Shown piece by piece: positions 29,231 to 40,991 of a DNA stretch of 49,044 bases; position 1 is the stretch's first letter, and each line of letters opens with the position of its first letter. This DNA is from Chlorobaculum sp. (lineage in GTDB: Bacteria > Bacteroidota > Chlorobiia > Chlorobiales > Chlorobiaceae). Location: positions 1 through 49,044 of the forward strand of contig JAAXXD010000009.1 in assembly GCA_013334655.1 (NCBI GenBank), written 5' to 3'. The notes beneath the pieces were generated by a model. It did no database searches and was not told where the DNA came from. It saw nothing but the letters and a program-made list of their open reading frames with translations. A program made the translations under genes and the position numbers.

Positions 29231-30109
29231 ATGAAGAGAGTGCTTGTGGCCGGGGCGACCGGTTACCTTGGACGTTATGCGGTGCAGGAGTTCAAGAATC
29301 GCGGATACTGGGTGCGTGCGCTGGTGCGCAATCCCGAGAAGTTCAAAAAGCCGGGGCCGTTTTTCGCGCCAGAGATCGACACGCTCGTTGACGAGGTGAT
29401 CTTCGGTGACGCCACGAAGCCCGAAACCATCGCCGGGCTGTGCGACGGCATCGACGTAGTATTTTCGGCACTTGGCATGATCAAGCCTGACTTCGAGCAC
29501 ACTAATTTCGACGTCGATTACCAGGGCAACATGAACATTCTCGCCGAAGCACTCAAGTCTGGCGTAAAAAAATTCGTCTACGTCTCGGTCTTCGACGCGC
29601 ACCGCATGATGAACATTCCCAACGTCCAGGCGCACGAGAAGTTCGTCCGCGAGTTGCAGGCGGCAAAGATCGAGAGCGCGATCATCCGCCCGAACGGTTT
29701 CTACTCGGAGATTGGCCAGTTCGTCGCCCGCGCCCGCCGCGGCTACATGATCTGGGTTGGCGATGGCTACCAGCGCCAGAACCCGATCCACGGCGCTGAC
29801 CTCGCCGCAGTGTGCGCCGACGCGGTGGACAGCAGCGAGCGCGAAGTCGAGGTCGGCGGCCCGGAGGTCTTCACCTACCACGAAATGGTCGATCTGGCCT
29901 GCGAAATCGCCGGAACCAAACCGGTGTTCGTCCCGCTCCCCTTCTGGCTGGCGGATGGCCTTGTCAGCGTGGTCGGTCTCTTCAACCGCGACGTGGCCGA
30001 CGTGGCGCTTTTCGCCACCACGCTCAGCAAAATGGACATCGTTTCGCCGAAATACGGCACCCATCGCCTGCGCGACTTCTTCAACGAGTGCAAGAGCTTG
30101 CCGGTCTGA
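29231..30109 (+). CDS. NmrA-like NAD(P)-binding protein (atypical short-chain dehydrogenase)
   Basis: 292 residues. The Rossmann dinucleotide site is at the very start: VLVAGATGYLGRY (GxxGxxG). It continues with ALVRNPEKF, VVFSALGMI and KKFVYVSVFDAH, then SAIIRPNGFYSEI in place of the classical YxxxK, as in NmrA/complex I NDUFA9-like atypical SDRs. Relatives act as reductases or as assembly factors and redox sensors. It ends in a good terminator hairpin (30136-30160), so it is a monocistronic unit. Confidence 0.85.
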   Translation: MKRVLVAGATGYLGRYAVQEFKNRGYWVRALVRNPEKFKKPGPFFAPEIDTLVDEVIFGDATKPETIAGLCDGIDVVFSALGMIKPDFEHTNFDVDYQGNMNILAEALKSGVKKFVYVSVFDAHRMMNIPNVQAHEKFVRELQAAKIESAIIRPNGFYSEIGQFVARARRGYMIWVGDGYQRQNPIHGADLAAVCADAVDSSEREVEVGGPEVFTYHEMVDLACEIAGTKPVFVPLPFWLADGLVSVVGLFNRDVADVALFATTLSKMDIVSPKYGTHRLRDFFNECKSLPV

Positions 30110-30135
30110 AGCAAAGTCTGTCACCAGAGAACGAG

Positions 30136-30160
30136 TGAAGCCGGACAATCTCCGGCTTCA
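30136..30160 (+). terminator. Hairpin terminator after the NmrA-like gene
   Basis: TGAAGCCGGA and TCCGGCTTCA form a perfect 10 bp stem with a 5-base loop, 27 bases after the stop codon, followed by a T-rich stretch (TGTGTTTCT). Confidence 0.8.
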
Positions 30161-30190
30161 TGTGTTTCTGCTTTGAAATCATGTGACATC

Positions 30191-30372
30191 GACACCCACC
30201 CCCAGGACCGGTATACCGAACCTCACTCCGAATCCGCCATCCTCGCGAAATTAAGCGAAACCGAACAATCCCTCTACAACGACTCCGCAAAAACCGCCAC
30301 GGCGATGGCATCAGGCAGGAAAAGGAAAATATCGGATTCGAGATGCTGATGTTTGCGTTGGGAAATGCGTAA
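30191..30372 (+). pseudogene. Remnant of the 3' end of a second jetD
   Basis: Translated frames match the last 55-60 residues of JetD (36571-37761). DRYTEPHSESAILAKLSETE here equals DHWQTEPHPETAELTRLTEA there, and EQSLYND is identical. After a frameshift the copy resumes with QEKENIGFEMLMFALGNA and a stop, equal to EQEKIGYEMLVAALGKM. Nucleotide likeness continues about 20 bases past the stop (TGTCGAAAGA in both). The copies differ clearly in sequence, so this is a leftover of a diverged jetD rather than a recent duplication. No upstream part of that gene is recognisable. Confidence 0.85.
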
Positions 30373-30734
30373 GGCGCGAGTGTCGAAAGAAAAAATAATG
30401 TACTTTTATATGTACAATGATTACAAGAGTTTTACAGATACAGATTGCGAATTTCTATGATTTAACCGGATAAAAAATCCCGTTACCTGATAATCGAACT
30501 GTGAGATAGCTGAGCGCTAAGATGAGTGCGCGTCCCCGTGAGCCATGTCAATCCGGGAGCCCGATCTTTCGGCAATAACCGGTTTATGGCTTAACTTCTG
30601 GGATAAAACAAGGCCAACTCATCCGCTAAACATGTTTCACTCATGAATCTCCTTCCACACACGCTGAACAGCTCGGATCAACAAGGATCGCGAATATTGT
30701 TCATCGTTTCACCTCGTATTTTCTGACCGCGCCT
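30373..30734. promoter_or_regulatory. Upstream region of the Wadjet operon
   Basis: 362 bp holding the expected jetA promoter. Near the left end a short inverted repeat TGTAC-8-GTACA (about 30399-30416) could be an operator. No clear -10/-35 pair or strong ribosome binding site for jetA is evident. No gene is seen. Confidence 0.35.
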
Positions 30735-32183
30735 ATGGCTCTCGATTACACGACGCTCGATCTGCTCCGGCAGAACCATCCGGCATGGCGGCTGTTGCGG
30801 GCGCAACATGCGCCGCTGGTGGCGTCGTTCCTGCATCGGGTGTTCATTGCGCCGAATGTGCGCAGCCTTTCGCAGGCCGATCTGGTCGAGGCACTCGAGG
30901 ATGAGCTGTTTGCGCTTCGGCGTCAGCTTGGCGACAATGCGTTTCCCGGTTCGGCGCAGAGTTACCTGAACGACTGGGCGGAGAATGACAAGGGGTGGCT
31001 GCGCAAGTTCTATCCGGTCGGCGAGGATGAGCCGCATTTCGACCTGACTCCGGCGACCGAGAAAGCGCTGGCTTGGCTGGAAAGCCTTTCGGAGCGGGCC
31101 TTTGTGGGCACGGAGTCGCGCCTGTTGACCCTCTTCGGGCTGCTGCGCCAGATGAGCACCGGCAGCCAGGCCGACCCGGAGGTGCGCATTGCCGAGCTGA
31201 ACCGCCGCCGCAACGAGATCGATGCGGAGGTCGCCCGCATCCGCGCCGGTGAAATCGCCATGCTCGACGACACGGCGCTCAAGGATCGATTCCAGCAGTT
31301 CCTGCAACTGGCCCGCGAGCTGCTGACCGATTTCCGCGAGGTGGAGCACAACTTTCGCGCCCTTGACCGGCGGGTGCGCGAGCGTATCGCGCTCTGGGAG
31401 GGAGCCAAAGGAACGCTGCTGGAGGAGATCATGGGGCAGCGCGATGCCATTGCCGATTCCGACCAGGGTAAGAGCTTCCGCGCTTTCTGGGACTTCCTGA
31501 TGTCGCAGTCGCGCCAGGAGGAGTTGACCGATCTCCTCGACGAGGTGCTCAACCTGCCGCCGGTGGTGGAGATGCGCCCCGAGCCGCGCCTGAAGCGGGT
31601 GCACTTCGATTGGCTCGATGCGGGCGAACACACGCAGCGCACGGTGGCGCGGCTCTCCGAACAGTTGCGCAAGTTCCTCGACGACAAGGCGTGGCTCGAA
31701 AACCGGCGCATCATGGACATCCTGCACGACATCGAGAACAAAGCACTCGCCCTGCGCGAAGCGATGCCCTCGGGAAGCTTCATGCCGCTTGCCGATGCCT
31801 CCGCCGACATCGAACTGCCGCTCGAAAGGCCGCTCTACCGGCCACCGTTCAAGCCGATGATCGAGGGAATCGCGCTCGACGAGGGTGACGCTGAAATCGA
31901 CACCGCCGCGCTCTATGCGCAGGTGATCGTCGATCGCACCGTGCTGATGCAGAACATCCGCAAGGCATTGCAGGAGCGGAGCCAGATCGCTCTCGGCGAA
32001 CTGATCGCCCGCCACCCCCTGCGCCACGGCCTCGCCGAACTGCTCACCTACCTCCAGATCGCCGGGGAGTGGCCCCGCACAGCGGTTGACGAGGAGACGG
32101 AAGAGCTGATCGAATGGGAAAGCGAAAACAGCGTGAACCGAGTAGCGAAGCTTCCACGGATTATCTTTGTGCGGAATGAGTGA
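30735..32183 (+). CDS. jetA: Wadjet anti-plasmid protein JetA (DUF3375, kleisin-like)
   Basis: 482 residues, the family's normal length. The opening LDLLRQNHPAWRLLRAQHAP is a DUF3375 hallmark, followed by a mostly helical protein with a coiled-coil middle (about 150-225) and a C-terminal winged-helix-like part (LIARHPLRHGLAELLTYLQI). In characterised Wadjet systems JetA is the MukF/kleisin-like subunit that bridges the JetC SMC dimer and recruits JetB. The genes for all four subunits follow in the canonical order. Unusually, 394 bp, including an inverted-repeat element, separate it from jetB. Confidence 0.93.
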   Translation: MALDYTTLDLLRQNHPAWRLLRAQHAPLVASFLHRVFIAPNVRSLSQADLVEALEDELFALRRQLGDNAFPGSAQSYLNDWAENDKGWLRKFYPVGEDEPHFDLTPATEKALAWLESLSERAFVGTESRLLTLFGLLRQMSTGSQADPEVRIAELNRRRNEIDAEVARIRAGEIAMLDDTALKDRFQQFLQLARELLTDFREVEHNFRALDRRVRERIALWEGAKGTLLEEIMGQRDAIADSDQGKSFRAFWDFLMSQSRQEELTDLLDEVLNLPPVVEMRPEPRLKRVHFDWLDAGEHTQRTVARLSEQLRKFLDDKAWLENRRIMDILHDIENKALALREAMPSGSFMPLADASADIELPLERPLYRPPFKPMIEGIALDEGDAEIDTAALYAQVIVDRTVLMQNIRKALQERSQIALGELIARHPLRHGLAELLTYLQIAGEWPRTAVDEETEELIEWESENSVNRVAKLPRIIFVRNE

Positions 32184-32224
32184 GAAGAGGACGATGGTCA
32201 TCCATCGCATCGGTTATCTCGCAG

Positions 32225-32246
32225 GGGCAACCCCCCGTGGTTGCCC
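32225..32246 (+). terminator. Perfect hairpin after jetA
   Basis: GGGCAACC (32225-32232) and GGTTGCCC (32239-32246) form an 8 bp GC-rich stem with a 6-base loop, 42 bases after the jetA stop. There is no U-run, so it may pause or protect the transcript rather than terminate it, or belong to the adjacent repeat element. Confidence 0.4.
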
Positions 32247-32260
32247 GGCATTGTTCAGGG

Positions 32261-32494
32261 AGAGGCTGTCTCAAAAGGTTTATATCCGTGAGTTATTCAG
32301 GACTTCGTTGTTTTGTCATTCTGAACAAAGTGAAGAATCCAGTTTCCGGGGATTTCCAGTAAATGGATAATTTATTGGACGTGACGAGAGTTCTCTGGAT
32401 TCTTCGCCCGCCCCGACAGTCGTCGGGACGAACTCAGAATGACAGACAAAACATGACTATAATCATTGGGGCAACCTCTTTTGAGACAGACTCT
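32261..32494. mobile_element. MITE-like element inserted between jetA and jetB
   Basis: A 234 bp unit without any transposase gene, bounded by imperfect terminal inverted repeats: AGAGGCTGTCTCAAAAGG at the left (32261-32278) and its complement in CCTCTTTTGAGACAGACTCT at the right (32475-32494). Inside lies a copy of the hairpin repeat also found at 19117-19212. No certain target-site duplication is visible. It occupies most of the jetA-jetB gap, where Wadjet genes normally almost touch. Confidence 0.75.
32315..32443 (+). repeat. Hairpin-forming intergenic repeat, copy 2 (nested)
   Basis: Same arm order as the copy at 19117: GTCATTCTGA (32315-32324), GAAGAATCCA, then TGGATTCTTC, a small hairpin CCCGACAGTCGTCGGG and TCAGAATGAC (32434-32443). 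The loop between inner arms is longer than in copy 1. It is nested in the 234 bp element. Confidence 0.85.
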
Positions 32495-32577
32495 GATTCC
32501 ATCATTCCCGATATTTTCGCCTTTGACGAATTGATGCTATACTTGCCGGTGTACTCTCATTTTTTCAAGTCGTCCCG

Positions 32578-33210
32578 ATGAATCCATCCGACACACAGAC
32601 GCCGCGTTCGATAAATGCTCCGCAGGAGCTGTCCCAGATTGTGGTCACCCTGCTGAAAGGGGTGATCTATCAGGAGGAGAGCCTGACCCTCTGGAGCGCC
32701 CTGCTTAACCTGCAAGCCGCCGTGCGTGATTACGTTGCCGTGATGGGCCTCGAACTCATCCTCGACGAGGCCGAGGGGTATGCCTTCCTGCGCTCGCGAA
32801 CAGCGGATGACGAGGAGAACGGCAACGTCATGCCGCGTCTGGTGGCCCGGCGGCAGCTCTCCTACCCTGTCAGCCTGCTGCTCGCGCTGCTCCGCAAGAA
32901 GCTCGCCGAATCCGACGCGGGCGGTGGCGATACGCGCCTGATCCTCTCGCGCGACGAGGTGGTGGAACTCGTCCGCATCTTCCTTCCGGCAGGCAGCAAT
33001 GAAGTGAAGCTGATCGACCAGGTCGATGCCACCCTGAACAAGATCGCCGAACTGGGCTTCGTCCGCCGACTTCGCGGTGAAAAGCAGATGATCGAGGTGC
33101 GCCGCATCATCAAGGCCTTCGTCGATGCGCAGTGGCTGGCGGATTTCGACCGCCGCCTCGACGAGTACCGCCAGCTTGCCGGGCAATCGACGGAGGAAGA
33201 GAATGGCTGA
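32578..33210 (+). CDS. jetB: Wadjet anti-plasmid protein JetB (DUF4194, KITE-like)
   Basis: 210 residues. The DUF4194 core is visible from VVTLLKGVIYQEESLTLWSA through RDYVAVMGLELILDEAEGYA to SYPVSLLLALLRKKLAE and VDATLNKIAELGFVRRL, two winged-helix units. In known Wadjet complexes JetB is the MukE-like partner that dimerises on the JetA kleisin. It overlaps jetC by 8 bp (33203-33210), so B, C and D are translationally coupled. With the element upstream, jetBCD may rely on read-through or on a promoter within or near that element. Confidence 0.93.
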   Translation: MNPSDTQTPRSINAPQELSQIVVTLLKGVIYQEESLTLWSALLNLQAAVRDYVAVMGLELILDEAEGYAFLRSRTADDEENGNVMPRLVARRQLSYPVSLLLALLRKKLAESDAGGGDTRLILSRDEVVELVRIFLPAGSNEVKLIDQVDATLNKIAELGFVRRLRGEKQMIEVRRIIKAFVDAQWLADFDRRLDEYRQLAGQSTEEENG

Positions 33211-36200
33211 GTCTCTCGAATTCGGATTCATCGCGGACGACCGCCTCGCCGGATTCCGCCTCCAGCGCCTCGAAGTGTTCAACTGGGGCACCTTCGACGG
33301 GCGCGTCTGGACGCTCCGGCTCGACGGCAAGAACGGCCTGCTCACGGGCGACATCGGCTCGGGCAAATCGACGCTGGTCGATGCCGTCACCACGCTGCTC
33401 GTCCCCAGCCAGCGCATCGCCTACAACAAGGCCGCCGGCGCCGACACCCGCGAGCGCTCGCTCCGCTCCTACGTGCTCGGTTTCTACAAATCGGAGCGGC
33501 AGGAGTCCCTCGGCGGCAGCGGGGCCAAACCGGTCGCCCTGCGCGACGCCAGCGCGTACTCGGTGGTGCTTGGCGTCTTTCATAACGAAGGGTACGAGAA
33601 AACCGTCACTCTCGCCCAGGTGTTCTGGATGAAAGATCCCGCCGGGCAGCCCGCGCGTCTTTTTGCCGCCGCCGAACGTGACCTCTCCATCGCCTCCGAT
33701 TTTTCAGGATTCGGTACGGAGATCACTGCCCTGAAGAAGCGCCTGCGGGCGGATGGCGTCGAGCTGTTCGACAGTTTCCCGCCTTACGGAGCCTGGTTCC
33801 GCCGCCGATTCGGCATCGACAACGATCAGGCGCTGGAGCTGTTCCATCAGACCGTCTCGCTCAAATCGGTGGGCAACCTCACCGACTTCGTGCGCAGCCA
33901 CATGCTCGAACCCTTCGATGTCGAACCGCGCATTGCCGCCCTGATCCACCATTTTGAAGACCTCAACCGCGCGCACGAAGCGGTGCTCAAGGCCAAGCGG
34001 CAGATCGAGATGCTTGAACCACTCGTACAGGATTGCGACCGCCACAGCGAACTCTCCGCCTCGACCGACGAACTGCGAAGCTGCCGGGAAGCCCTGCGCC
34101 CCTGGTTCGCCTCCCTCAAGCTCGGGCTGCTCCACCAGCGCATCACCTCGCTCGAAGAGGAACTCGCCCGCCACCAGAGCGCTGTCGGGCGACTTGAAGA
34201 GGAGCGCCGCGACGGACAGGAGCGCGAACGCAACCTCCGCCGCACCATCGCCGAAAACGGCGGCGACCGCATCGAGAGCATCGCCTCCGAAATCCGCACG
34301 AAGCAGGCGGAACTCGAACGCAAAAAGCGCAACGCCAACCGTTATGCGGAGCTGCTCAAGCCACTCGGCGAAACGCCCGCAGCCACCGCCGAGGAGTTCC
34401 TCCAGCAACGCTCTGGACACGAAGCGATGCGCGATGAGGCCGGAGAGCGCGAGGCGAGCGTCCAGAACGAGCTGAACGAGCTGGGCGTCACGGTAGCGCA
34501 GGAGCAGCAGGAGTACCGGGAGCTCAACGCCGAAATCGAGAGTCTGAAGGCCCGCAGGAACAACATCGACGACCGGCAGATCGCCATGCGCCGCGAACTC
34601 TGCCGGGCGCTCGGCATCGACGAGGCGGAGATGCCCTTCGCGGGCGAACTGCTTCAGGTGCGTGAAGATGAGGCCGCGTGGGAGGGGGCCATCGAACGGC
34701 TGCTGCGCAACTTCGCTCTCTCGCTGCTCGTGCCCGACCGCCACTACGCGCCGGTTGCCGAGTGGGTTGATCGCACGCACCTCAGAGGACGCCTCGTCTA
34801 CTTCCGGGTACGCCCGCCTGCCCGCCGGGAAGCACTGCCCGACAACCCCGCAAACCTGCCGCGCAAGCTGATGATCAAGGCGGACTCCCCTCACTTCGAC
34901 TGGCTCGAACGGGAGATAGGCAACCGCTTTGACCTGGTCTGCTGCGACACTCAGGAGGAGTTCCGGCGCGAAAAGAAGGCGATCACGATGGCCGGACAGG
35001 TCAAGATGCCCGGCGAGCGCCACGAGAAGGACGACCGCCACCGCCTCGACGACCGCAGCCGCTACGTGCTCGGCTGGACGAATGCCGCCAAAATCGCCGT
35101 GCTCGAAGCGAACGCCCGCATGAAAAGCGAGCGCCTCGGTGAACTGAGGAGCCGCATGAAAGCGCTGCAAGAGGAGCAAACGACGTTCAAAGAACGCCTC
35201 ACCATCCTCTCGCGCCTCGACGAGTATCCCGACTTCAACGACCTCGACTGGCAGCCGGTGGCCGTCGCCATCGCCCGCCTCGAAGCGGAAAAGCGGGAGC
35301 TGGAGAGCACCTCCGACATGCTCCGCACCCTCACCGCGCAGCTCGAAGAGGTTGAGGCGGGACTCCGAGAGACCGAGCGCATCATCGACGACCGCAAGGA
35401 CAAGCGCTCGAAAACCGAGCAGAAGATCAGCAACGCAAAGGAGCTGGAGGAGCAGGCGCGACAGATCGTAAGCGAAGCCGCGCCGGAAGTGGTCGCCCGC
35501 TTTGCTCGACTCGAAAGCCTTCAGGCGGAGATGCCGGAGCAGAAAGCACTCACCGTCGAATCGTGCGACAACCGCGAGCGCGACATGCGCGACTGGCTGC
35601 AATCGCGCATCGATGCCGAAGACAAAAAGCTCTCGCGCCTGAACGAAAAGATCATCCGCGCGATGACCGAGTACAAGGAGCAGTGGAAGCTCGAAACGAG
35701 CGAGTTCGATGCAAGCCTCGCTGCCGTCGAAGAGTACGGCAACATGCTCAAAAACCTGCGTTCGGACAACCTGCCTCGCTTCGAGGGACGCTTCAAGGAG
35801 CTGCTCAACGAAAACACCATCCGCGAAGTGGCCAACTTCCAGTCGCAGCTCGCCCGCGAACGCGAAACCATCAGGGAGCGCATCGGGCGCATCAACGAAT
35901 CGCTCACGCAGATTGACTACAACCCCGGACGCTACATCAGCCTCGAAGCACAGACAAGCCCCGACGCCGACATCCGCGAGTTCCAGTCGGAACTCAGGAG
36001 TTGCACCGAAGGCTCGCTGACCGGCTCGGAGAGCGCCCAGTACTCCGAAGCAAAATTCCTCCAGGTGCGCAAAATCATCGACCGGTTCCGGGGACGCGAT
36101 GAGTACAGCGACCTCGACCGCCGCTGGACGGCGAAAGTGACCGACGTGCGCAACTGGTTCGTCTTCGCGGCCAGCGAGCGGTGGCGCGAAGGCGACGCCG

Positions 36201-36574
36201 AGCACGAGCATTATGCGGACTCGGGCGGCAAATCGGGCGGCCAGAAGGAGAAGCTCGCCTACACGGTGCTCGCCGCCAGCCTCGCCTACCAGTTCGGCCT
36301 CGAATGGGGGGCGGTTCGCTCGCGCTCCTTCCGCTTCGTAGTGATCGACGAAGCTTTCGGACGCGGTTCGGACGAATCGGCCCACTACGGCCTGCAACTC
36401 TTCGCCCAGCTCAACCTGCAACTGCTCATCGTCACGCCGTTGCAGAAGATCCACATCATCGAACCCTTCGTTTCGAGCGTCGGATTCGTGCACAACCAGG
36501 ATGGCCGCGCATCCGTGTTGCGCAACCTCAGCATCGAAGAGTACCGCGCCGAAAAAGCGAAAACGCCCCAATGA
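33203..36574 (+). CDS. jetC: Wadjet SMC-like ATPase JetC (MukB/SbcC-like)
   Basis: 1123 residues from ATG 33203, chosen because CGGAGGAAGAG lies just before it; the frame is open upstream but overlaps jetB. The N-terminal head has Walker A GDIGSGKST (about 49-57). Long coiled coils (about 270-470 and 640-960) flank a hinge region (about 480-600). The C-terminal head has the ABC signature SGGKSGGQKEKLAYT (about 1008-1022) and Walker B FRFVVIDEAFGRGSDE (about 1043-1058). All ATPase motifs are intact. Family role: ATP-driven loop extrusion that detects small circular DNA and presents it to JetD for cutting. It overlaps jetD by ATGA (36571-36574). Confidence 0.95.
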   Translation: MAESLEFGFIADDRLAGFRLQRLEVFNWGTFDGRVWTLRLDGKNGLLTGDIGSGKSTLVDAVTTLLVPSQRIAYNKAAGADTRERSLRSYVLGFYKSERQESLGGSGAKPVALRDASAYSVVLGVFHNEGYEKTVTLAQVFWMKDPAGQPARLFAAAERDLSIASDFSGFGTEITALKKRLRADGVELFDSFPPYGAWFRRRFGIDNDQALELFHQTVSLKSVGNLTDFVRSHMLEPFDVEPRIAALIHHFEDLNRAHEAVLKAKRQIEMLEPLVQDCDRHSELSASTDELRSCREALRPWFASLKLGLLHQRITSLEEELARHQSAVGRLEEERRDGQERERNLRRTIAENGGDRIESIASEIRTKQAELERKKRNANRYAELLKPLGETPAATAEEFLQQRSGHEAMRDEAGEREASVQNELNELGVTVAQEQQEYRELNAEIESLKARRNNIDDRQIAMRRELCRALGIDEAEMPFAGELLQVREDEAAWEGAIERLLRNFALSLLVPDRHYAPVAEWVDRTHLRGRLVYFRVRPPARREALPDNPANLPRKLMIKADSPHFDWLEREIGNRFDLVCCDTQEEFRREKKAITMAGQVKMPGERHEKDDRHRLDDRSRYVLGWTNAAKIAVLEANARMKSERLGELRSRMKALQEEQTTFKERLTILSRLDEYPDFNDLDWQPVAVAIARLEAEKRELESTSDMLRTLTAQLEEVEAGLRETERIIDDRKDKRSKTEQKISNAKELEEQARQIVSEAAPEVVARFARLESLQAEMPEQKALTVESCDNRERDMRDWLQSRIDAEDKKLSRLNEKIIRAMTEYKEQWKLETSEFDASLAAVEEYGNMLKNLRSDNLPRFEGRFKELLNENTIREVANFQSQLARERETIRERIGRINESLTQIDYNPGRYISLEAQTSPDADIREFQSELRSCTEGSLTGSESAQYSEAKFLQVRKIIDRFRGRDEYSDLDRRWTAKVTDVRNWFVFAASERWREGDAEHEHYADSGGKSGGQKEKLAYTVLAASLAYQFGLEWGAVRSRSFRFVVIDEAFGRGSDESAHYGLQLFAQLNLQLLIVTPLQKIHIIEPFVSSVGFVHNQDGRASVLRNLSIEEYRAEKAKTPQ

Positions 36575-37761
36575 GCAGAAGCGCGACCGGCTGGACGACC
36601 GCCGCCGACATCCGGGCACAGGTGCTGAAGCTCTGGAACCGGGGCGCGCTGCTCTCGACGATGGTAGAGGGCGAACAGCTCTTCCCGCTGCGCCTCGCGC
36701 TCAAGGGGCCGGATTCACGCCAGCTCAGCGACCGCTTCGCCGAAGTACGCGAATGGATCAGCGCACTCACCGCCGCCGCCGGGCCGTACCGCATCGCTTG
36801 GCGCACGGTCAACCACCGCGTCCTCGGAAGCAACGACATTCCATCGGAACTCTGGATCGACACAGCGGCGGACGCCCTCGCGCTCATTGGCAAGCGACGC
36901 GACGCGACTCAGTTCGCGGAACTGCTCGAACTGACCCGCGAAGAGGAACCCGCGCTGCTCCCCTGGCTTGCCAAGCGCCCACTCCGTGCCCTCGAACTCT
37001 CCGAATCGTGGCCCCACATGCTTCGACTCGTCGCCTGGCTGCGCGACCATCCCCGCCCCGGCATCTACCTCCGCCAGATCGATTTGCCCGGTGTGCACAC
37101 CAAATTCATCGAAGCGCACCGCGGCGTGCTCTCCGAACTCTTCGACCTCGCACTGCCGCCCGAGTCGATCGATGCAACCGCCACCGGCAGCGCCAACTTC
37201 TGCCAGCGCTACGGCTTCCGCGACAAGCCGCTCCGCGTCCGCTTCCGCCTGCTCGACCCCGCGCTCGCCCTCCTGCCCGACTGCGCGGATATGGACGTCA
37301 CTCTCACGCAAACCGACTTCGCCTGCCTCGCGCTGCCGGTCGAAACCATCTTCGTCACCGAAAACGAAATCAACTTCCTCGCCTTCCCTCCCTTCCCGCG
37401 AGCGATGGTCATCTTCGGCGCAGGCTACGGCTTCCAGAACCTCGCCCGGATCGACTGGCTGTGCCGCCGCAAACTCATCTACTGGGGCGACATCGACACG
37501 CACGGGTTCGCGATCCTGAACCAGTTCCGCGAGCACTTCCCCCACGCCGCCTCGCTCCTGATGGATCGTGAAACCCTCCTCGCCCACCGCGACCACTGGC
37601 AAACCGAACCCCACCCCGAAACCGCCGAGCTGACGAGACTGACCGAAGCCGAACAATCGCTTTACAACGATCTGCGCGAAAACCGGTTAGGCGAACGGGT
37701 ACGGCTGGAACAGGAAAAAATCGGGTATGAGATGCTGGTGGCGGCGCTGGGGAAGATGTGA
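36571..37761 (+). CDS. jetD: Wadjet nuclease JetD (DUF3322/DUF2220, Toprim)
   Basis: 396 residues from ATG 36571. The N-terminal DUF3322 part (about 1-190) is DNA-binding-like. The C-terminal DUF2220 part is a Toprim domain related to topoisomerase VI: the catalytic Glu is in FVTENEINFLAFP (about 264) and the DxD pair in YWGDIDTHGF (about 307-309). All three acidic residues are present, so the nuclease should be active. JetD cuts plasmid DNA caught by the JetABC motor. A hairpin terminator lies about 43 bases after the stop. Part of the 3' end has a diverged remnant upstream of jetA (30191-30372). Confidence 0.94.
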   Translation: MSRSATGWTTAADIRAQVLKLWNRGALLSTMVEGEQLFPLRLALKGPDSRQLSDRFAEVREWISALTAAAGPYRIAWRTVNHRVLGSNDIPSELWIDTAADALALIGKRRDATQFAELLELTREEEPALLPWLAKRPLRALELSESWPHMLRLVAWLRDHPRPGIYLRQIDLPGVHTKFIEAHRGVLSELFDLALPPESIDATATGSANFCQRYGFRDKPLRVRFRLLDPALALLPDCADMDVTLTQTDFACLALPVETIFVTENEINFLAFPPFPRAMVIFGAGYGFQNLARIDWLCRRKLIYWGDIDTHGFAILNQFREHFPHAASLLMDRETLLAHRDHWQTEPHPETAELTRLTEAEQSLYNDLRENRLGERVRLEQEKIGYEMLVAALGKM

Positions 37762-37803
37762 ACCGGCAGGTGTCGAAAGAGAAATTCTGTTTACCCGGAG
37801 AGC

Positions 37804-38023: not shown

Positions 38024-38063
38024 TGATCAATTGTTCAATACTTAAGTATTGAGCAATTGATCA
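38024..38063. repeat. 40 bp near-perfect palindrome between convergent genes
   Basis: TGATCAATTGTTCAATACTT (38024-38043) is followed directly by its inverted complement with one mismatch (38044-38063). There is no loop. The right end supplies the stop codon of the minus-strand gene (TCA at 38061-38063). It may work as a two-way terminator between the Wadjet operon and the next gene, or be a protein-binding or insertion site. Confidence 0.75.
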
Positions 38064-38798
38064 GAGATCATCCAAAATCTTAAACTTCCAATACGCGCTA
38101 TCCCAACTGCAAATCATTTCATTATATTTGATTTTTACCCATTCATATTTGGCTCGAACTTTTTCGTCTATGTGAGAAATACCGGCAAGAATCAGCCTTT
38201 TCAATGCGTCTGCATAGATTGCAAAATCATATTCTGGATCATCGAGATTTTGAATATTTTTGCCAAAATAATCTACAAATAGGCGCTGATCTGTATCCTC
38301 CGAAATAACCTCATTGAGTGCGGCAATTTCATGATGCGGCAAATGATGACTTGCGTGAAATTTGACTCCCAATTCATATACATCCTTAGAAAGGATGACT
38401 CTTGGGAATTTGGCAATTTTAGATTCAAGTTCATAAGCATCTATCATTGCTGGTCCAATCAAAATTTCCGTAGTGTGAACTAATGGCCCAAGAGAAATTC
38501 CGCCTCGCACAATATAGCCACGATAAATCAATCTAGCCAAGTACATCTGAATATCATTCAGTGTATAAAAGACTTCGCTTTCCGTGTCGTAGGGAAATGA
38601 GATAACTATGCTGTCGCTAAATTGGGTGACCACTGTCCGTTTGATAGGATTTTCTATTTCAAAATGTTCACGAGCCATGTTGATGGCTTCAATTATTTTA
38701 TCCAGCTCAGATGGATTTATTGTCGTTTTTTCGACGATTTCTTTGAAGCCGAGAAAATCCAAAAAACAACATACTCGATTTTCGTAATTCATTTTCAT
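38061..38798 (-). CDS. Class III nucleotidyl cyclase-like protein (unknown product)
   Basis: 245 residues from ATG 38798, chosen because GGAG lies 8 bases upstream of it; an earlier ATG at 38846 has no binding site. The core resembles an adenylate/guanylate cyclase fold: VCCFLDFLGFKEIV (first metal Asp), TQFSDSIVISFP (second metal Asp), YIVRGGISLGPLV, then GPAMIDAYELESKIAKFPRV. The two metal-binding aspartates are kept, but the Asn/Arg pair in the NxxxR helix of classical cyclases is replaced (IDAYELES). Pycsar uridylate cyclases (PycC) share this fold. The gene is AT-rich, follows Wadjet tail-to-tail and lies downstream of a small membrane protein gene on the same strand. Cyclase activity is inference. 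Confidence 0.6.
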   Translation of the reverse strand: MKMNYENRVCCFLDFLGFKEIVEKTTINPSELDKIIEAINMAREHFEIENPIKRTVVTQFSDSIVISFPYDTESEVFYTLNDIQMYLARLIYRGYIVRGGISLGPLVHTTEILIGPAMIDAYELESKIAKFPRVILSKDVYELGVKFHASHHLPHHEIAALNEVISEDTDQRLFVDYFGKNIQNLDDPEYDFAIYADALKRLILAGISHIDEKVRAKYEWVKIKYNEMICSWDSAYWKFKILDDL

Positions 38799-39037
38799 GG
38801 CCTTTTCTCCATTATTTGAAGTGGCGATTGATTTCAATGTCATCATTTGATAGTTTATTAAAAACTCGATTGTGTGCTATTTCAATTGCAGTTGTCCCGC
38901 CCAGAGGCTCTGCCTAACATTTAAGCTCGCCGACTGAAATGGCGAACAAAAATACTACAAATAACACAACTGATACAACAGAGACTTTTCAGTTAGGTAC
39001 AGCGCCTTATTCGGCCTTGATGAGATTAGTCCGTCTC

Positions 39038-39481
39038 TTAATGAGATTGTTTGGTTTTGTAGCTATCGATGATCCGTTGGAACGTTATGGGTTCCCAAGA
39101 GATATTGTATATGTTGTAGATGAAAAATGTGATAAGTGCGATTATAAATATAACAGGCAGCACACGCTCAACAAACCTAAAAAACAAACGAGGCCTGATT
39201 CTTTCGGTGTCGGGATTGGCATTGTATGCGATTGCAGCATCTTTGGATACATATATATCCCGCAGCAAATATATAGTCCCACAGACCAGACAAATAAAAA
39301 ACATAAATGCCGATAAAATAAGAAGTTCAGTGTGAACAGAACTATCAGTTACCAGTCTTGTCCAAAAAGTAACAATCAAGGCTAAAAGAGTAGCTGATAA
39401 AGACAATACTGTTCTATTAAAATGTGCGTATGCGTCTCGACGTAAATCTGACAACTCTTTTAAAACTTCTGATGAATACAT
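39038..39481 (-). CDS. Small three-helix membrane protein (unknown)
   Basis: 147 residues from ATG 39481 (a TTG at 39487 is also possible). After a charged N-terminal helix (SEVLKELSDLRRDAYAHFNR) come three membrane helices: TVLSLSATLLALIVTFW, LLILSAFMFFICLVCGTIYL and VLPVIFIIALITFFIYNIYN. A soluble loop between helices 2 and 3 holds about 35 residues. A competing plus-strand frame across the same bases lacks such structure. It precedes the cyclase-like gene by about 240 bp on the same strand. The size and shape recall SLATT/PycTM-like pore effectors of cyclic nucleotide defence, but no nucleotide-binding domain is visible, so this is only a possibility. Confidence 0.55.
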   Translation of the reverse strand: MYSSEVLKELSDLRRDAYAHFNRTVLSLSATLLALIVTFWTRLVTDSSVHTELLILSAFMFFICLVCGTIYLLRDIYVSKDAAIAYNANPDTERIRPRLFFRFVERVLPVIFIIALITFFIYNIYNISWEPITFQRIIDSYKTKQSH

Positions 39482-40062
39482 ATGCAAGTATGGATGAACT
39501 TGTTTATAGTCCGAACAACATTTACACTGATCTGCCTAATCCAGAAAAGCCAGACCGCTTCTTTCTGTATAAGCCCCCCCCTACAACCATACTCACAGAC
39601 CAGCCAATTAATTATTTAAAAACAACTTAACCACATCAACAATTATTGAACCCCGCCGGTTTATACAGATCAGTCTAAACCGGCAACACACTCAGCATCA
39701 CTCAAAGAACGCTTCACGCAAGTTCAGCAGTAACCGCAGGATCAAAGCACCTATCAGCTATTCCGTCACTCGTATTGCATTGAGTCTGTTCTGCTCATTC
39801 GAAACACCGCCTCGAAATGGATTATTGCATAAGCCCGACGGCGGGGCTTATGATTTATATGTACGAATAATCACTGCATTTATCAAGTCCAGACGCTTAA
39901 AAAGCCGCTCCTAAATCTCCCACTCACGCTTTACGAATCATACATCGCCGTGAGGCAGAATCATTCGTAACCTCTTTTCATTCCAAATTTTACGACCGGC
40001 ACGAGCATGAGCGAGGTGAAGGCGACGGCTGATCGGAAACGTCGAGGTAGCGGGCAATTGCG
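39482..40062. other. Intergenic stretch with two hairpins
   Basis: 581 bp without a convincing gene. Two stem-loops are clear: GCCGGTTTA/TAAACCGGC at 39655-39684 and CATAAGCCC/GGGCTTATG at 39828-39852, the second followed by ATTTATAT and so a likely terminator. They may be ends of lost genes. The sequence is AT-rich to about 39950, then becomes GC-rich at the broken aldolase gene. Confidence 0.5.
39828..39852. terminator. Terminator-like hairpin
   Basis: Nine-base perfect stem CATAAGCCC/GGGCTTATG with a 7-base loop, followed by TT-rich sequence. No intact gene ends just before it on either strand, so it may belong to a removed gene. Confidence 0.5.
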
Positions 40063-40991
40063 TCACTCCATCGACGCTTTCAAACTTTGCGCGGCTTCGG
40101 CTATGCGGCTGCGTTCGGGTTCGGCGAAGCGCTGGAACGGTTCGGCCATGATGTCGCTGCACAGGCCGAGGCTGGCGAGGGCGCATTTCAGGCCCTTGAT
40201 GACGCTGGAGGATCCATGACCAGCTTCATAGATGAGGCGGCACACCTCCATCACCTTGCCGTGCAGCTCGACGGTGCGTTGCAACTCGCCCGAAGCGGCG
40301 GCGTGGTAGAGCGCGACGTAGAGCTTCGGAAACAGATTCGCCCCCGCACAGACGCTCCAGTGCGCGCCCGTCAACACGGACTCGGCAAGCAGTTGTTCGG
40401 GGCCGATGAACAGGCTGGCATGGGGCAGCTCCGCAAACAGCGCCCTGATGTTCTGGAAATAGCACATGTCGCCGGAGCTGTCCTTCAACCCCACGATGCC
40501 CGGAATCGTCATGGCCTGACGAGCCGTTTCCGGCGCGAAACCGGAGGCCGATACGGCAAGTTGTAGAGGAAGAGCGGAAGCAGCAGTTGCGGCGCGAGGC
40601 GCTCCAGATAGCCGAGTAGTTCGGCCTGCGTGGCGGGGAAATAGTATGGCGGCGCGAGCACGAGCGCGTCGGCTCCGCACCGGCGGGCCGTTTCGGCGAT
40701 GGCGAGCGACTCCGTGATCGCCGTTTCACTGATGCCCACCAGCACCGGCACCCGCCTGGTGACGATGCCGCAAACCTGCCGCACAAGCTCGTGCTTGAGC
40801 GCCGCGCCGAGACCTGGAGCCTCCCCGGTTGTGCCCAGAATGAAAATACCGTGCACGCCGTCGCCGATCACATGCTCCGTCAGCCGCTCCAACCCTCGCT
40901 CATCGAGTGTCGAGTGGTCGGCAAGAGGGGTGACGAGTGGCGGTATGATGCCCTTCAACGGCACTCCCGGAACTTCACTGGCATGGTGCAT
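40063..40991 (-). pseudogene. Dihydrodipicolinate synthase-family aldolase, frameshifted
   Basis: Two overlapping frames make up one DapA/NAL-family TIM barrel of about 309 residues. The first (from 40991) encodes GIIPPLVTPL, FILGTTGEAPGL and PLFLYNLP with the catalytic Tyr. The second (to 40063) continues VSASGFAPETARQAMTIPGI, then GIVGLKDSSGD with the Schiff-base Lys, and runs to a normal C-terminus. Adding one base at about 40555-40558 joins them (NLP-VSASGF), so a single-base loss explains the break. It is either a young pseudogene or a sequencing error. Substrate within the family (dihydrodipicolinate, keto-sugar acids) cannot be told, and no lysine gene is near. Confidence 0.88.

Follow-up and report, generated by a model that had tools for sequence, protein, structure and literature searches.

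Why does the decayed 3' end of a second jetD gene stand ahead of a complete Wadjet operon? It may be a displaced piece of its neighbor or the remains of an earlier operon. Gains and losses of defense systems are well known, but their steps are seldom visible, and jetD tails are marks of both. Moreover, the fixed orientation of these tails and the varied cargo beside them let one ask which recombination route drives the turnover of defense islands. Loss of Wadjet is known to be selectable: in Clostridium cellulovorans, a spontaneous mutant that took up plasmids far better carried a 23-kb deletion that had removed jetABCD (PMC12287153).

Identity and decay of the jetD fossil

We analyzed a stretch of 49,044 nucleotides (the window) that holds a complete type I Wadjet operon, with jetABCD all at full length according to PADLOC and Pfam. 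JetD is the Toprim nuclease of this system (PMC10586767). The features on which the argument relies are as follows.

29231 to 30109, plus strand: NAD(P)-binding SDR-like core gene, with a terminator hairpin ending at about 30160
30185 to 30395, plus strand: decayed jetD 3' tail (the fossil), residues about 338-396, with a probable DIDTH scrap at 30185-30199, a frameshift at 30282/30283, a stop codon at 30370-30372, and a shared 3' flank to about 30395
30396 to 30591, no strand assigned: stretch between the fossil and the Wadjet leader, with no match in the relatives compared
30592 to 30734, plus strand: leader upstream of jetA, common to genomes G009 and G005; the conserved Wadjet unit begins here
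30735 to 32183, plus strand: jetA (DUF3375; PADLOC/Pfam)
32578 to 33210, plus strand: jetB (DUF4194, MukE-like; PADLOC/Pfam)
33125 to 36574, plus strand: jetC (SMC-like; PADLOC/Pfam)
36571 to 37761, plus strand: intact jetD (DUF3322 and JetD_C; PADLOC/Pfam)
37583 to 37784, plus strand: 3' counterpart of the fossil in the intact jetD (blastn match)
39514 to 39908, plus strand: dispersed repeat of the genus, 354-395 bp; copies lie directly before jetD tails in G014, G009:C2, and G005, with a common spacer

The fossil aligns with the end of the local jetD at 72% identity over 202 bp (blastn, E = 6e-25; 30195-30394 against 37583-37784), and its local-alignment score of 111 compares with 29 for the best of 300 dinucleotide-preserving shuffles. 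Within its own genome, the 396-aa JetD matches only itself and the fossil, the latter in two frames (residues 339-370 and 367-395), and the JetD C-terminal region (JetD_C, PF09983) shows significant homology there. One base is missing at the frameshift, the stop codon is TAA, and likeness to the local gene continues for 23 bp beyond it. These results bear out the original prediction of a frameshifted JetD C-terminal remnant upstream of jetA with likeness extending past the stop. This likeness ends at nearly the same distance from the stop in the fossil and in intact units; since likeness to the G014 unit likewise ends at 37784, the Wadjet unit has its 3' edge at about this position.

The intact neighbor belongs to type I Wadjet (JetABCD, an anti-plasmid system). 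The fossil corresponds by homology to the C-terminus of the nuclease subunit of this system and lacks jetABC and nearly all of jetD. What is left is the last seventh of the gene (210 bp), with its open reading frame broken by the frameshift and by the absence of the 5' part. At 30185-30199, a 15-mer (GACATCGACACCCAC) corresponds to the jetD DIDTH codons, with 14 of 15 positions identical to the local gene (37489-37503) and all 15 to a jetD fragment of G008. This match, although short, suggests that 30185 is the probable start of the fossil and that an internal piece of about 80 bp, between two CCCAC motifs, was probably lost.

Differences between the fossil and the local jetD are distributed across all codon positions (21/58, 10/59, and 20/58), as expected of a pseudogene without coding constraint, although the sites are few; the intact local and G014 genes differ at 4/58, 2/59, and 13/59 positions. 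In a maximum-likelihood tree, the fossil has a branch length of 0.25 versus 0.035 for the local jetD. Judging from these patterns, the fossil appears to have evolved mostly as a pseudogene. We consider it fairly probable that it represents the last 60-odd jetD codons of an earlier type I Wadjet unit, now without function, that its lineage is older than the present intact jetD genes of the genus, and that a second complete unit came to lie immediately behind the older one, with the same orientation, while the older one was deleted to its 3' terminus.

Two observations concern the rest of the operon region. The intergenic stretch between jetA and jetB (32187-32505) is extra DNA relative to G009, with likeness to a segment of G008:C172 at 32312-32451. 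No Rfam family was found in the window.

Relationship of the fossil to intact jetD genes

If part of the local jetD end had been duplicated in tandem and had decayed since, the result would have the orientation and the 3' edge that we see, and the identity of the fossil to the local and to other intact jetD genes is about equal. Synonymous differences, in contrast, set the fossil apart from every intact jetD of the window's genus (g1). At one Arg-Leu site, all four intact g1 genes read CGGTTA or CGGTTT, whereas the g1 fossils that cover this site read CGCCTC or close to it, with C as the last base of the first codon and CTC as the second codon in all except the window's fossil (CAC). The outgroup gene (G033, genus g2) reads CGTCTC, that is, the fossil state; therefore, the fossil keeps older nucleotides that are absent from all four intact g1 genes.

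Tree-based results point the same way. The window's fossil clusters with those of G005, G008, G009, and G032 (support of 87/88 in the maximum-likelihood tree), a grouping of fast-decaying sequences that may be due in part to long-branch attraction. Forcing the fossil and the local jetD together costs 13.4 lnL units (p-AU 0.071), and a smaller test with intact jetD genes only, taking one tree at a time, placed the fossil as sister to the local gene in 2.7% of RELL resamples (0.027); alignments of about 180 bp limit these placements, and the exact branch is not settled by the test. Given the synonymous differences and the cost of this placement, we regard a tandem duplication as very improbable.

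The copies are thus diverged and not the product of a simple recent duplication, as originally proposed, on the strength of the Arg-Leu site, the grouping with fossils of other genomes, and the spread over codon positions. Nor is the fossil closest to the local jetD at all sites; such closeness had been named in advance as a sign of partial duplication. The further expectation that the fossil would be closer to the jetD of another strain is not supported by overall identity, which does not clearly favor one (73.2% to G014 versus 71.8% to the local gene); the diagnostic sites exclude the intact g1 lineage. The fossil probably predates the divergence of today's alleles. Its parent allele would be an intact jetD with CGCCTCGGCGA and a GTGTCGAAAGA flank; no intact jetD of this lineage was found among the genomes compared. 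Judged by JetD, the closest named relatives of the window's source are Chlorobaculum sp. 24CR and a Chlorobiaceae MAG.

The chromosomal site behind the SDR gene

An older Wadjet operon at this very spot, making the locus a hotspot of Wadjet turnover, had also been proposed. The site does not bear this out: in none of 18 relatives with the SDR gene do the 1.5 kb behind it hold a Wadjet gene or a jetD tail. What acts as the hotspot is the Wadjet unit, irrespective of place. We also considered the SDR-FeADH neighborhood as a possible hotspot; Wadjet is found 12 kb from the SDR gene in G009 and beside an FeADH scrap in G012, but most relatives have none.

Likeness to the 18 relatives ends at 30081-30175 (30161-30175 in the closest ones), left of the fossil edge, so that the fossil has core sequence on one side and the Wadjet unit on the other. 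The source assembly has 146 contigs and is 84.5% complete, and with such fragmentation the junction between the SDR gene and the fossil could be a mis-assembly. A junction at the fossil's edge, with core likeness ending at 30161-30175 and the fossil starting at 30185, would result if the fossil were the left end of an island received as a block from a donor (30185 to about 41000, comprising the tail, Wadjet, two further genes, and the repeat), in which case the turnover happened elsewhere. The order Wadjet, cargo, repeat, dapA recurs at G009:C91, where the stretch reaching from the repeat as far as jetD shares 94% identity with G014. Against such a transfer, no donor was found with a tail and Wadjet in the window's order and allele, and the stretch at 30396-30591 is without a match in the relatives compared. 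We take block transfer to be possible but on the whole doubtful.

jetD tails and Wadjet turnover in Chlorobiaceae

We searched 86 genomes of the family with a sequence profile of jetD 3' ends and found such ends in 47. Sixteen of these genomes carry at least two on one contig, and in all 16 the ends lie on the same strand, which random orientation would yield about once in 65,000. The window's order, a tail followed by jetABCD, is also present in G064. More commonly, an intact jetD is followed by 0.8-6.5 kb of cargo and then by a jetD tail. The cargo between the intact jetD and the tail is as follows.

G009: TacA/TacT
G014: Shango SngABC
G035: MqsA
G081: MqsR/MqsA
G090: ParE-like pair
G100: PIN domain
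G066: ParE-like
G105: HipA, DUF4160/DUF2442

In G100, the tail together with 80 bp beyond its stop aligns farther and scores higher with the intact allele of G066 than with the local allele, supporting allele replacement in that genome. Lone tails occur in G008 and G032, where no intact Wadjet was found; that of G032 retains 188 bp of flank matching the flank of the window's jetD. One exact fossil, consisting of a jetC end and the last 26 jetD codons, is shared by G091, G103, G107, G108, and G109, and in a third arrangement G091:C33 holds an array of partial jetCD copies and fossils. Read together, these genomes show Wadjet loci of Chlorobiaceae turning over and leaving jetD tails behind. The idea that an operon was replaced or deleted, leaving its 3' tail, is supported for the loci of the family (16 of 47 genomes, G064, and G100) and is not supported for the chromosomal spot of the window.

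Two other accounts of the tails were rejected. They are not a high-copy mobile repeat, since there are few per genome at most in the sequence-only profile and, at E ≤ 1e-4, they occur only in g1 genomes with Wadjet genes, except for G008. Nor do all parts of Wadjet survive equally, because JetA and JetC searches found no lone jetA heads, only ones at contig ends or in fusions. Some lone jetC pieces exist (G026 and G027); thus, the bias toward the 3' end is strong but not absolute. JetD had no relative on viral contigs, and its matches in 12 plasmid records were all below 60% identity.

The most likely scenario is the addition of a unit beside a resident one, followed by deletion of the older unit. 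A new Wadjet unit would join the resident in the same orientation via recombination between like sequences, and the older unit would then be deleted with its jetD 3' end spared. Co-orientation and the replacement in G100 support this scenario, for which we infer a once complete operon upstream of the tail, gain preceding loss, and recombination between like units. Addition followed by deletion does not account for the strong predominance of 3' ends among lone fossils, nor for exact left edges beside repeats.

Those edges are shared. In G014, G009:C2, and G005 the tail begins exactly 187 nt upstream of its stop, and in G035, G090, and G081 exactly 154 nt upstream; the adjoining repeat sequence is common and the cargo different. 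A series of independent deletions does not predict exact edges common to several tails beside repeats. Either these edges are single ancient events inherited while the cargo changed, or the jetD end is a preferred boundary of exchange. As for the repeat at 39514-39908, it has inverted arms and occurs in several copies per genome over much of the genus.

Displaced gene 3' ends can arise where islands integrate into the termini of, for example, tRNA or housekeeping genes, and the jetD tails resemble these in that a second copy of a gene 3' end bounds the cargo. By analogy, DNA may have entered the jetD 3' end, bringing a replacement end and pushing the original tail away. The exact edges at -187 and -154 fit such an entry, as do the tails behind jetD with TacAT, MqsRA, ParE-like, PIN, HipA, or Shango cargo. 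Unlike in gene-end islands, no integrase was seen in the cargo stretches inspected, the left edges vary between groups, and the window's tail precedes jetA instead of following jetD, all of which makes displacement decidedly unlikely. We give slightly more credit, while still thinking it unlikely, to the jetD 3' end being a recurrent recombination boundary in Chlorobiaceae, where the intact end and the fossil tail would act as direct repeats bracketing exchangeable cargo (toxin-antitoxin [TA] pairs, Shango, or, in the window, a whole Wadjet operon) that is swapped without an integrase. In G014:C77 (L108:9270-15134), Shango (SngABC) lies between jetD and the tail, and G009:C91 carries the block from jetD to the repeat with 94% identity.

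The fossil is a pseudogene whose gene family is known, as is its kind of setting, the defense island. Like other gene remnants in such islands, it is a decayed part of a defense gene beside an intact system and other defense or TA genes. What differs here is that, across many genomes of a single family, almost every remnant is a jetD 3' end pointing the same way as the intact operon; in a limited literature search, we found no description of recurrent co-oriented jetD tails within one bacterial family.

Some genomes carry a reduced Wadjet, in which jetC (and jetD where the contig reaches) stands behind an in-frame fusion of 49-83 aa that joins the JetA start to the JetB end, with the remaining jetA and jetB absent.

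L318:4078-4320, with jetC starts in L319, L320, L317, L315, and L313: JetA-start/JetB-end fusion (G109, G098, G068, G091, G077, and G089)

The frame is kept in all six fusions, in two of them after further deletions, and the fusion with jetCD could be a working jetCD variant.

Behind jetD in the window, on the minus strand, lie a gene at 38061-38846, whose VTQFSDSIVISF...RGGISLG motifs recall class III nucleotide cyclases, and one at 39038-39487 for a small membrane protein. Neither product matched a family; together they are perhaps a cyclase-effector defense pair. A related protein (30% over 109 aa) is encoded behind the jetD tail of G035. Farther on, also on the minus strand, a dapA-like gene (40063-40991) is split into two frames; it is intact (309 aa) in G020.
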